DNA of 64,000 bases from a bacterium (lineage in GTDB: Bacteria > Actinomycetota > Acidimicrobiia > Spongiisociales > Spongiisociaceae): the NCBI GenBank assembly GCA_028820935.1, contig JAPPHZ010000009.1, positions 124,001 to 188,000 on the forward strand. The letters run 5' to 3'. The notes under the pieces were generated by a model that had not been told where the DNA came from, ran no database searches, and saw nothing but the letters and a program-made list of their open reading frames with translations. The number at the start of each line of letters is the position of its first letter. Positions within the stretch are counted from its first letter, which is position 1. Below are positions 39,546 through 44,274 of the stretch, piece after piece. The translations under genes were made by a program, and so were the position numbers.

Positions 39546-41096
39546 TTATCCGGCGGCCGCAGCCTCTACGGTGTCCTCGGCGGCCTGGCGGATGAGTTGG
39601 GCCCGATCCACCTCGCTCGCCCGGTGGCGGGCAACGACGCGGCCCCGTGACATGACCACGATGGTGTCGGAGATGCGGATGACCTCCTCGATGTCCGACG
39701 TGACGATGAGCACCGCGATGCCCTCGTCAGCGAACCTCCGCAGCACGTGATATATCTGCGCTCGGGCGCCCACGTCCACCCCGCGCGTCGGCTCGGCCAG
39801 CACCAGCAATCTCGACTCGCGCTCCAGCCAGCGCCCCAGGACCACCTTCTGCTGGTTTCCCCCAGACAGGGTGTCGACGATCTGGGTGGCGCCTCCCTTG
39901 CCTCGGATGTCCAGGGTCTCGTACCACCTCTCGAACACCTTGGCGGTGGCCATCGGGGGCAGCAGACCGGCCTTCGTCATCCACGGCCAGGACGCCACGC
40001 TCAGGTTCTCGGCGACGTTCAGGACGGTGAGCAACCCGTCGGTCTTGCGGTCGATCGGGACGAACCCGATCCCGAAGCGGGCGATGGCATCCTTGGGCGA
40101 CCTGGGCTGCCCGCTCTCCTCGCCCACGCGCATGGACCCGGCAACCATCTCCCGGAGGCCGAAGACGGCCTCGGCCAGCTCCAACGCTCCGCAGCCGATC
40201 CTCCCGAAGAGGGAGAGGATCTCACCCTCCCGTACCTCCAGGTCAACGTCCTTGAAGACCCCTTCCGACGAGGCCCCTTCGATGGTCAGGACAGGTTCAC
40301 CGATCTCGTGGCCCTCCCCGCGCAGGGAGGCGACCTCCTCCTCGAGTTCGTGCCCGACCATGGCCTCGACCATCTCCTTGCGACCGAACTCGCTGACCGG
40401 TCCCTCTGCAACCGCGTCTCCGTCCCGGAAGACCAGGACGTTGTCGGCGATCCGCTCCACCTCGTCGAGCCGGTGTGTTATGTAGATGATGGCCACGCCT
40501 CGGGCCTTCAGACGTTCGATGAAGGCGAAGAGGGCGTCCGTCTCCTCGAGGGTCAGCGCCGAGGTCGGCTCGTCCAGGATCAGGAGGCGGGCGCTTCCAG
40601 CCAGGGCGCGGGCGATCTCCAGCACCTGGCGCTCGGCCACGCCGAGGTTGCCCACCAGGGCCCGGATGGGTAGCTCGATGCCGAGCTTGTCGAGGATCTC
40701 CCTCGCGTCACGACGTACCCGGGACCAGTCGACCAGGCCGAAACGGTTGCGCGGCAGCCGTCCCAGGGACAGGTTCTCGGCCACCGTGAGATCGGGCGCA
40801 TCCGAGAACTCCTGGTAGATGACCCGGAGCCCGTAGGCGCCGGCGTCGCGCGGGCTGCGGATGTCCGCCTCCTCGCCGTCGATGACTATCACGCCGGCAT
40901 CCCGCTTGTAGTCGCCGGCCAGGATCTTGATGGCGGTCGACTTACCGGCACCGTTCTCCCCCAGGAGAGCGAGAACCTCGCCGCCCTCCACAGTGATGTC
41001 CACGCCGTGGAGAACCTCGACCCCGCCGAAGCTCTTGCGGAGTCCGGTGGCCCGGAGTTCGAGCCTCTGGTTCAGCGCTCCGTTCTCGGTCGTCAT
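39546..41096 (-). CDS. ribose-type ABC transporter ATPase, duplicated domain
   Basis: ATP-binding subunit of a CUT2 (RbsA-like) sugar importer, 516 aa with two nucleotide-binding domains. Domain 1 has Walker A GENGAGKSTAIKIL, signature NLGVAERQVLEIARAL and Walker B LLILDEPTSAL. Domain 2 has a degenerate Walker A (GRIGCGALELAEAVFG), signature LSGGNQQKVVLGRWL and LLVLAEPTRGVD, in which the expected Walker B Asp is Ala. It overlaps the upstream permease gene by four bases. Domain 1 is expected to hydrolyse ATP. Confidence 0.9.
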   Translation of the reverse strand: MTTENGALNQRLELRATGLRKSFGGVEVLHGVDITVEGGEVLALLGENGAGKSTAIKILAGDYKRDAGVIVIDGEEADIRSPRDAGAYGLRVIYQEFSDAPDLTVAENLSLGRLPRNRFGLVDWSRVRRDAREILDKLGIELPIRALVGNLGVAERQVLEIARALAGSARLLILDEPTSALTLEETDALFAFIERLKARGVAIIYITHRLDEVERIADNVLVFRDGDAVAEGPVSEFGRKEMVEAMVGHELEEEVASLRGEGHEIGEPVLTIEGASSEGVFKDVDLEVREGEILSLFGRIGCGALELAEAVFGLREMVAGSMRVGEESGQPRSPKDAIARFGIGFVPIDRKTDGLLTVLNVAENLSVASWPWMTKAGLLPPMATAKVFERWYETLDIRGKGGATQIVDTLSGGNQQKVVLGRWLERESRLLVLAEPTRGVDVGARAQIYHVLRRFADEGIAVLIVTSDIEEVIRISDTIVVMSRGRVVARHRASEVDRAQLIRQAAEDTVEAAAAG

Positions 41097-42109
41097 GATC
41101 CGCTCAGCCGCAACCTCACCTGGTCGAGCCCGACGGCCGCCACCAGAACGACACCGGTCGCAACGTCCTGCCAGAACGACGAGATGCTCAGCAGGGTGAG
41201 TCCGTTCTGCATGATGCCCAGGATGAAGACACCGAGGACCGTGCCCGGTATGGTGCCCCGCCCGCCGGAGAGGCTGGCGCCGCCCAGGATGATGGCGGCC
41301 ACCACTTCGAGCTCCACACCCGTGGCCGCGTTCCCTGAAGCGGCGTCCAGCTGTGACGCCAGGATCAGCCCGGCCAGGCCGGCCAGGAGACCGCTGACGA
41401 TGAACATGACGAAGATGGTCGGCTTCTGGCGGATTCCGGACAGCCGGGCCGCCGTCGGGTTGCTACCGATCGCGTACACGGATCGGCCGAAGCGCGTGTA
41501 GCGGACCACGAACCACGCCAGCACGGTGATCAGGACGAACATGACGATCTGGGCCGGTACGCCGAGGATGTCGTTGGTGATGAAATCGACCTTGCCGTTC
41601 ATCCTGATCGTCTGGCCGTTGGAGAAAAGGCGCGCCAGTCCCCTGTATCCCAGCCAGGTACCAAGGGTGACGACGATCGAAGCGATACCCGCGTAGGCGG
41701 AGAGCACTCCGTTGAATATCCCGGCCAGAAGACCCACGGCGAGGGCGGCCAGGATGGCCGCCGCGGCGCTGTTCTCCTCGGCCACGACGCCTGCAATGCA
41801 GCCGCACAGCGCGGCCCCTGACGCCACCGACAGGTCGAAGTTGCCCGATATGAGAAGCAGCGTGCCCGGTGCGGCGAGGATGCCCAGGACGGAGACCGAG
41901 AGCAGCACGTTGCGCATGTTGCGAGTGGTGAGGAAGAACTCGCTGCCCTGCCAGAAGATGAACCCGAGGATCACCAGGACCACGATGAGAACGACTTCGG
42001 GTGGCATCGCCACGAATATGCGAGCGATTCGGGCCCGCCCGCTGATGCCTGCTACTGGCGCGGCATCCGGCGAGCCGGCCCCACCATCTTCGACCGGAGT
42101 TTCGTCCAT
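41093..42109 (-). CDS. ribose-type ABC transporter permease
   Basis: RbsC-like inner-membrane subunit, 338 aa with about ten spans. It has LLISGNFDLSVASGAALCGCIAGV (the family's GGIDLSVG segment, here GNFDLS), LGTWLGYRGLARLFSNGQTI, FGRSVYAIGSNPTAARLSGI and GGRGTIPGTVLGVFILGIMQNGLTLL. The stop overlaps the ATPase start. A GC hairpin lies between this gene and the binding-protein gene upstream. Confidence 0.9.
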   Translation of the reverse strand: MDETPVEDGGAGSPDAAPVAGISGRARIARIFVAMPPEVVLIVVLVILGFIFWQGSEFFLTTRNMRNVLLSVSVLGILAAPGTLLLISGNFDLSVASGAALCGCIAGVVAEENSAAAAILAALAVGLLAGIFNGVLSAYAGIASIVVTLGTWLGYRGLARLFSNGQTIRMNGKVDFITNDILGVPAQIVMFVLITVLAWFVVRYTRFGRSVYAIGSNPTAARLSGIRQKPTIFVMFIVSGLLAGLAGLILASQLDAASGNAATGVELEVVAAIILGGASLSGGRGTIPGTVLGVFILGIMQNGLTLLSISSFWQDVATGVVLVAAVGLDQVRLRLSGS

Positions 42110-42189: not shown

Positions 42190-44274
42190 TCAGCCCGGGT
42201 AGAACTGGTCGATGTTGTCCGCGCTCACAAAGATGTGGTTCACGAACAGCGGATCCGGTACCGGGTCACCGGCGATCATGGCCAGGATGGCCGGGATCAC
42301 ATAGTTCCCGTAAGTCTCGGGGAAGTAACCCGTCGACCCGATGTACTGCGGGTTGGACCTGATCTCCTGATGGATCGTCGCGTCAGCACCCTGGCTGGCG
42401 TACACGACCATGTCCTCGATACCCAACTCACGGGCCGCCGCCAGAGCCGCCAAACCCATGTCGTCGTTCAAGGACACCACCGCGATCCGCTTACCCGGAT
42501 TAGCCGTGAACGTGTCCAACACCTTCGGGAACGCACCATCGGTGGTACCACCACCATCAATACGGGTAACGATCCCCGTCGCGTCCGGCGACCAGTTCTC
42601 GAAGTCGCCGTAGTCAAGACCCGTACACACCTGGGAGATACCCCGGACCATGCCGTTGGCCCGATCGATGTTCACCTGGCCGACAACGAAGGTCTCCATC
42701 GTCACGACCAAATCGATCCCGCAGCCCCAGTTCTCCTGGGCCCACTGACCCAGCGCCTGGCCGGCCAACTCACCCGCGTAACCGTTATCCGCCCCGAAGA
42801 ACAGAGCACAAGACGGATGGGCGATATCGATAGCGATCACCGGGAGATTCGGGTCGTTCGCCCGCAACTCGTCACAGAGCGCACCCTCGATCGACGCATC
42901 GATCTGGAACTGGATCACACCATCCACCTCAGCCAACGTGAACGTCCGAGCGTTCTCGAGAGCCGTCTCACCGTCCAGGTTGTTATCCGCGTACAACACC
43001 TCGACATTGCACGCCTCAGCAACCTCCATCAGATTGTCCAACACCTGAGTCACGAACGGGATACCAGCAGTCAGATCCCCATAACCGATCGTCATACCCG
43101 TACCGTCATAACCCTGACACACAGCAGGCATATCAGCCATAGCCGTCGGAGCAGCCATCCCGTCCGCCGGGTAGAACTGGTCGATGTTGTCCGCGCTCAC
43201 AAAGATGTGGTTCACGAACAGCGGATCCGGTACCGGGTCACCGGCGATCATGGCCAGGATGGCCGGGATCACATAGTTCCCGTAAGTCTCGGGGAAGTAA
43301 CCCGTCGACCCGATGTACTGCGGGTTGGACCTGATCTCCTGATGGATCGTCGCGTCAGCACCCTGGCTGGCGTACACGACCATGTCCTCGATACCCAACT
43401 CACGGGCCGCCGCCAGAGCCGCCAAACCCATGTCGTCGTTCAAGGACACCACCGCGATCCGCTTACCCGGATTAGCCGTGAACGTGTCCAACACCTTCGG
43501 GAACGCACCATCGGTGGTACCACCACCATCAATACGGGTAACGATCCCCGTCGCGTCCGGCGACCAGTTCTCGAAGTCGCCGTAGTCAAGACCCGTACAC
43601 ACCTGGGAGATACCCCGGACCATGCCGTTGGCCCGATCGATGTTCACCTGGCCGACAACGAAGGTCTCCATCGTCACGACCAAATCGATCCCGCAGCCCC
43701 AGTTCTCCTGGGCCCACTGACCCAGCGCCTGGCCGGCCAACTCACCCGCGTAACCGTTATCCGCCCCGAAGAACAGAGCACAAGACGGATGGGCGATATC
43801 GATAGCGATCACCGGGAGATTCGGGTCGTTCGCCCGCAACTCGTCACAGAGCGCACCCTCGATCGACGCATCGATCTGGAACTGGATCACACCATCCACC
43901 TCAGCCAACGTGAACGTCCGAGCGTTCTCGAGAGCCGTCTCACCGTCCAGGTTGTTATCCGCGTACAACACCTCGACATTGCACGCCTCAGCAACCTCCA
44001 TCAGATTGTCCAACACCTGAGTCACGAACGGGATACCAGCAGTCAGATCCCCATAACCGATCGTCATACCCGTACCGTCATAACCCTGACACACAGCAGG
44101 CATATCAGCCATAGCCGTCGGAGCAGCCGCGGTGGTAGCCGGAGCAGCAGCCGTGGTGGCCTCGGTAGCGGCAGGGGCGGCAGTGGTCTCCGCCGGTTCG
44201 TCATCATCACCCCCGCACGCGGCGGCTACCAGCGATAGGGCCACTACAACCGCCAACAACTTGAGTTTTCTCAT
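42190..44274 (-). CDS. sugar ABC substrate-binding lipoprotein with internally duplicated domain
   Basis: Family-4 (RbsB-like) periplasmic-type binding lipoprotein. The signal peptide and lipobox LVAAAC (Cys20) and a Thr/Ala linker are followed by two complete, apparently identical binding domains of about 320 residues each, MPAVCQGYDGTGMTIGYGDL to ADNIDQFYP, joined by a very short linker. A normal RbsB-like protein has one domain, so the 694 aa product is about twice the expected length. The start at 44274 was chosen for GAGGGAGG. The duplication is 962 bp at DNA level and keeps the reading frame. Confidence 0.85.
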   Translation of the reverse strand: MRKLKLLAVVVALSLVAAACGGDDDEPAETTAAPAATEATTAAAPATTAAAPTAMADMPAVCQGYDGTGMTIGYGDLTAGIPFVTQVLDNLMEVAEACNVEVLYADNNLDGETALENARTFTLAEVDGVIQFQIDASIEGALCDELRANDPNLPVIAIDIAHPSCALFFGADNGYAGELAGQALGQWAQENWGCGIDLVVTMETFVVGQVNIDRANGMVRGISQVCTGLDYGDFENWSPDATGIVTRIDGGGTTDGAFPKVLDTFTANPGKRIAVVSLNDDMGLAALAAARELGIEDMVVYASQGADATIHQEIRSNPQYIGSTGYFPETYGNYVIPAILAMIAGDPVPDPLFVNHIFVSADNIDQFYPADGMAAPTAMADMPAVCQGYDGTGMTIGYGDLTAGIPFVTQVLDNLMEVAEACNVEVLYADNNLDGETALENARTFTLAEVDGVIQFQIDASIEGALCDELRANDPNLPVIAIDIAHPSCALFFGADNGYAGELAGQALGQWAQENWGCGIDLVVTMETFVVGQVNIDRANGMVRGISQVCTGLDYGDFENWSPDATGIVTRIDGGGTTDGAFPKVLDTFTANPGKRIAVVSLNDDMGLAALAAARELGIEDMVVYASQGADATIHQEIRSNPQYIGSTGYFPETYGNYVIPAILAMIAGDPVPDPLFVNHIFVSADNIDQFYPG
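42195..43156. repeat. 962-bp direct repeat, copy 1
   Basis: Bases 42195-43156 recur at 43167-44128 with an exact offset of 972 bp. I saw no mismatch between the copies on reading. The 10-bp spacer at 43157-43166 joins them, and the total of 972 is divisible by three. It covers the binding domain of the lipoprotein. Confidence 0.9.
43167..44128. repeat. 962-bp direct repeat, copy 2
   Basis: Partner of 42195-43156. This copy is followed by the linker and signal-peptide coding part, so it is the copy nearer to the protein's N-terminus. Confidence 0.9.

Follow-up and report, generated by a model that had tools for sequence, protein, structure and literature searches.

Gene A encodes a substrate-binding lipoprotein of which nearly the whole mature part is a pair of identical domains. 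Comparison among related genomes shows that the copies are alike within each species and different between species, a pattern of concerted evolution. The account that we favor, and consider very probable, is that the domain was duplicated in frame before speciation, that recombination has since homogenized the two copies, and that selection has retained the two-copy form, likely as a bivalent receptor. The paired domains have been kept identical while species and genera diverged, and this holds for at least three receptor families within a single bacterial group.

Architecture of gene A and its importer

Gene A is an open reading frame on the minus strand (42190..44274, with the ATG at 44274) that encodes a two-domain protein of 694 aa, and a GGAGG sits closely 5' of the start codon. 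Direct reading of the sequence places a signal peptide up to the lipobox cysteine at 44215..44274 (minus strand; MRKLKLLAVVVALSLVAAAC); the lipobox is VAAAC, with the cysteine at residue 20. In the translation, a low-complexity spacer of Ala, Thr, Pro, and Glu follows (44129..44214, minus strand). Self-comparison and Pfam delimit repeat copy 1, the N-terminal Peripla_BP_4 domain (43167..44128, minus strand, 962 nt), and repeat copy 2, the C-terminal Peripla_BP_4 domain (42195..43156, minus strand, 962 nt), and self-comparison leaves between them an unshared linker of 10 nt that forms part of the ADGM codons (43157..43166, minus strand). The order in the protein is lipobox signal peptide, spacer, domain, a junction of about 12 residues, the identical domain, and the stop. 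When the two copies were recomputed, 0 mismatches were found over 962 nt, and because the offset of 972 nt equals 3x324, the reading frame is kept across the repeat within a single ORF. A sequence-only reading of this DNA had described the same exact, frame-preserving repeat, to which we add that the gene lies on the minus strand. Its proposal of a lipoprotein with two sugar-binding domains also agrees with our predictions from sequence and structural models, as detailed below.

The whole protein matches Peripla_BP_4 in Pfam at 118.3 bits (gathering score 35.1) in two stretches, and a single repeat copy scores 65.1 bits. One unit was modeled at a pLDDT of 92.7; the best Foldseek matches of the model are RbsB 7e7m (E 5e-18) and also 2ioy, and the sequence profile of the unit matches 2gx6 (E 1e-28). 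The unit is thus predicted by modeling to have a ribose-binding-protein-like fold, and gene A is supported as a putative sugar-type binding lipoprotein. NCBIfam gave no match for the binding protein, and an AlphaFold model of the whole double protein (676 aa) was of low confidence (pLDDT 55). Profile matches identify the genes that come next as a permease (BPD_transp_2, CUT2 type, AraH/RbsC-like; 41093..42109, minus strand) and a double-ABC ATPase (AraG/RbsA-like; 39546..41096, minus strand). This is the neighborhood of a CUT2 system, and the lipoprotein is part of a CUT2-type ABC importer with the adjoining permease and ATPase.

Related double genes and the identity of their copies

The source genome (G000) carries a paralogue, B, about 30 kb from gene A (C9:197093-199081; L011:9093-11081). 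The B protein is 33-38% identical to A and has two domains in one frame; its repeat in G000 is exact over 903 nt with an offset of 924, and the gene is adjoined by its own permease and a single-ABC ATPase. Relatives in the genus and family also carry A and B. The homologues come from Acidimicrobiia MAGs according to record titles, and the isolate names suggest that most of these derive from sponge metagenomes. A further family, C, is 60% identical to B; L068 and L069 carry it in double form, and L070 in single form. A and B share one contig in the source genome, and also in G008 and G010, which suggests a shared catabolic island. Upstream of gene A, a 168-nt near-exact direct repeat is present in G004 and G006 (L045:5407-5673 and L046:1288-1591) and was not reported in G000. 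The MAG contigs L046, L054, L055, L056, L057, and L058 stop inside gene A, at a distance of one k-mer, or close to it, from the edge of the repeat.

Most species of the genus keep two copies in frame. Single-copy forms occur for A in G002 and for B in G002 and G005, which makes the double form dispensable. About 50 other related substrate-binding proteins (SBPs) from Actinobacteria and Chloroflexi are all single-domain, and a class-wide search of 296 genomes with the C-family unit found no further double genes. The SBP protein tree needs at least three changes between the single and double states, and thus the duplications in A, B, and C were probably separate events.

Ten double genes are complete (A in G000, G004, and G008; B in G000, G003, G006, G008, and G011; C in L068 and L069). 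Over 8,979 compared sites, their copies differ at 8, all of them within the unit's final 15 nt, at the boundary of exact identity. Copy divergence has a 95% upper bound of 0.033%, about 70x below the smallest divergence between species; orthologues differ by 2.4-5.5% between species and by 14% between genera. Expressed per unit, species differ at 22-29 of 936 nt in A (comparing those with two copies), at 26-39 of 885 nt within the genus and, between genera, at about 125 in B, and at 48 of 873 nt in C. At all 237 of the 237 sites that vary between species, both copies agree in every species. Grouping of the N-terminal copies as one clade is rejected for B (p-AU 1.1e-5) and for C (p-AU 2e-91), the two families that entered this test, the copies of gene A being fully identical. 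The divergence of the flanking permease and ATPase is comparable to or above that of the unit (identity between G000 and G008 of 94.2% for the A permease, 90.9% for the A ATPase, and 97.0% for the A unit). Copies within a species are therefore closer to each other than orthologues are between species, as in concertedly evolving paralogues. Among the explanations offered by the sequence-only reading, active gene conversion fits best with the within-species identity, the agreement at variable sites, and the rejected N-terminal clade.

The linkers bear on the age of the duplication. The A linker (GCGGACGG...) is common to four A genes, that of the source genome being homologous to those of G004, G006, and G008; the B linker (ATGGC[C/T]GA...) is common to B genes of two genera, and LEGAEP forms the linker in both double C genes. 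Since linkers are common to several species, the duplication is older than the species split and its copies have been homogenized since; that is, the sequences indicate that the duplication is old and the sameness of the copies is new. The simple form of a very recent event, as first proposed, does not accommodate a linker that is common to species while the copies of each species match. The B N-terminal flank in the single-copy genes of G002 and G005 (MADDSAMTTDEPI) corresponds to the linker found in G008 and G003 (MADEMAMTTDEPI), whereas the end of the B linker in G000 and G006 resembles the N-flank of each species itself (MADEPI). Because the linker ends differ between species, the homogenized B tracts appear to end at different edges in each species, as would be expected if conversion had occurred separately.

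The gene A repeat is far beyond chance. No second exact tandem repeat of about 962 nt was found in the window, the whole 64-kb stretch of DNA that was analyzed, and across 1.28 Mb of G000 and G011, exact tandem repeats of at least 900 nt occur only in SBP genes. Such repeats are thus not widespread in the genome, as judged from the 1.28 Mb sampled. The next-longest exact match is a direct match of 783 nt between spots 3.3 kb apart on G000 C29 (197919 and 201216; L187:17919-18701 and L188:1216-1998), the first copy of which falls within an amidohydrolase-like gene. In addition, a 577-aa protein with several Cache-type domains is encoded near the double B gene of G011 (L060:7501-9234, minus strand); its repeat has an offset of 804 and includes a 142-nt exact tract, which looks like partial homogenization.

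Homogenization, proposed selection, and competing explanations

We propose that an in-frame duplication took in the whole binding domain, joining the end of the coding sequence, minus its stop, to the N-terminal spacer, and that in gene A this would have preceded the split of several species in the genus. The copies of about 960 nt have since been homogenized, probably by homologous recombination between the direct repeats, either through gene conversion or through unequal sister exchange. Direct repeats of such length recombine readily via RecA, and an ordinary recombination enzyme of the RecA type is presumably responsible here. If copy divergence approximates the ratio of mutation rate to conversion rate, we estimate that conversion need be only some 3,000-fold above mutation per site, for which ordinary recombination suffices. 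The same recombination would also delete one copy; in E. coli, tandem arrays have been shown to lose copies and to be affected by recA (PMC11111574). As recombination collapses copies, yet most species keep two, selection appears to hold the two-domain form. By analogy with OpuA and GlnPQ, the favored function may be that of a bivalent lipid-anchored receptor for one CUT2 importer, in which two identical binding sites on one lipid anchor near one permease dimer would raise the effective receptor concentration and allow fast re-docking. Of the two benefits suggested by the sequence-only reading, higher capture efficiency may apply, whereas contact with two transporters found no support in this analysis. 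Two further SBP families, B in the source genome and C in more distant MAGs, appear to have followed the same course.

A stronger version of this proposal is conceivable, although we give it clearly less than even weight: several distinct nutrient receptors of sponge-associated Acidimicrobiia would have turned repeatedly into "identical twin" proteins, and sameness itself would be under selection, for example because a homodimeric permease favors symmetric docking, while recombination maintains the identity. With regard to function alone, it is also possible, if rather unlikely, that copy number varies within populations (1, 2, 3, and so on), giving a phase-variable or dosage-tunable receptor of which the double gene is the commonest state. 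This reading is compatible with homogenization, and it could draw on the occurrence of both single and double forms across species, on the ready recombination of direct repeats of this size, and on the recA-affected tandem copies in E. coli (PMC11111574). However, no three-copy gene was found in any assembly examined, and the in-frame two-copy state is common to most species of the genus.

A different history, in which each species independently and very recently re-duplicated the domain from a single-copy ancestor without conversion, seems improbable. Single-copy orthologues do exist in the genus, and fresh re-duplication would likewise yield identical copies in each species, but identical breakpoints and an identical linker would be needed many times, given the linkers common to four A genes and to B genes of two genera. 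Furthermore, every double gene is exact, and none looks to be of intermediate age. Conversion is therefore more likely than renewed duplication at the same breakpoints each time.

The sequence-only reading had also raised an assembly artefact, in which one copy is written twice or diverged copies are flattened to one consensus, and this we regard as very unlikely. Many of the assemblies are of short-read style (NODE and k141 names), the repeat exceeds such read lengths, and minor differences between copies can be lost in short-read assembly; the copy number of two is that of the assemblies. On the other hand, the junctions are present and are homologous yet non-identical between species, and the same architecture recurs in two genes of one genome, in three SBP families, and in ten complete genes from several assemblies. 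The strongest individual evidence against an artefact comes from the B gene of G011. This gene is intact, with an exact repeat of 910 nt, and lies on a 3.0-Mb contig of the chromosome-labeled record OY282370.1; contig size and record style indicate that this assembly is probably long-read. The broken assemblies point the same way. In G005, whose deposited contig names begin with k141, the sequence on either flank breaks off exactly 141 nt into the unit, and the contig remnant inside the repeat is 55 nt in G001, G003, and G010 and close to this in G007 and G006. Breaks one k-mer inside a repeat are the behavior of a true exact repeat in a de Bruijn assembler, although they show identity of the repeat ends only and not of the interior. 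Such genes are missed in gene catalogues and under-counted, as short-read MAGs break or lose them at the repeat edge.

Comparison with known systems

Tandem binding domains of importers are known mainly as differing pairs fused to the permease, and most known cases of concerted evolution involve separate genes. Both phenomena are thus familiar; their combination, an SBP with identical domains in tandem, was not found described in the limited collection of literature that we searched. The genes therefore offer a natural system for asking what an ABC importer gains from a second identical site and how selection holds a recombination-prone duplication.

CUT2 importers of the RbsBCA, AraFGH, and FrcBCA type share with gene A the permease and ATPase families, the neighborhood, and the Peripla_BP_4 fold, although their binding proteins have one domain rather than two. 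In GlnPQ of Lactococcus lactis, the tandem SBD1 and SBD2 compete for docking and put four sites by the pore (PMC8025302). As in gene A, one chain holds two SBDs for one ABC importer, and the linkers are of similar length (14 aa in GlnPQ and about 12 aa in gene A). In GlnP, however, the domains are fused to the permease, which belongs to an amino-acid importer, and each has its own specificity and affinity (PMC8025302), whereas the gene A domains are identical in DNA and belong to a separate lipoprotein, the permease being a separate ORF. OpuA likewise has two binding domains near one permease, and these are reported to cooperate in delivery (PMC11065425), but its two SBDs come from two subunits of one complex rather than from a duplicated domain matched by recombination. 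Finally, concerted evolution by gene conversion has been described for prokaryotic paralogues such as tufA/tufB and amo, in which copies within a species are closer than orthologues between species, as they are here (PMC6053082). The tufA/tufB and amo copies are separate genes, whereas those of gene A are domains of one polypeptide.
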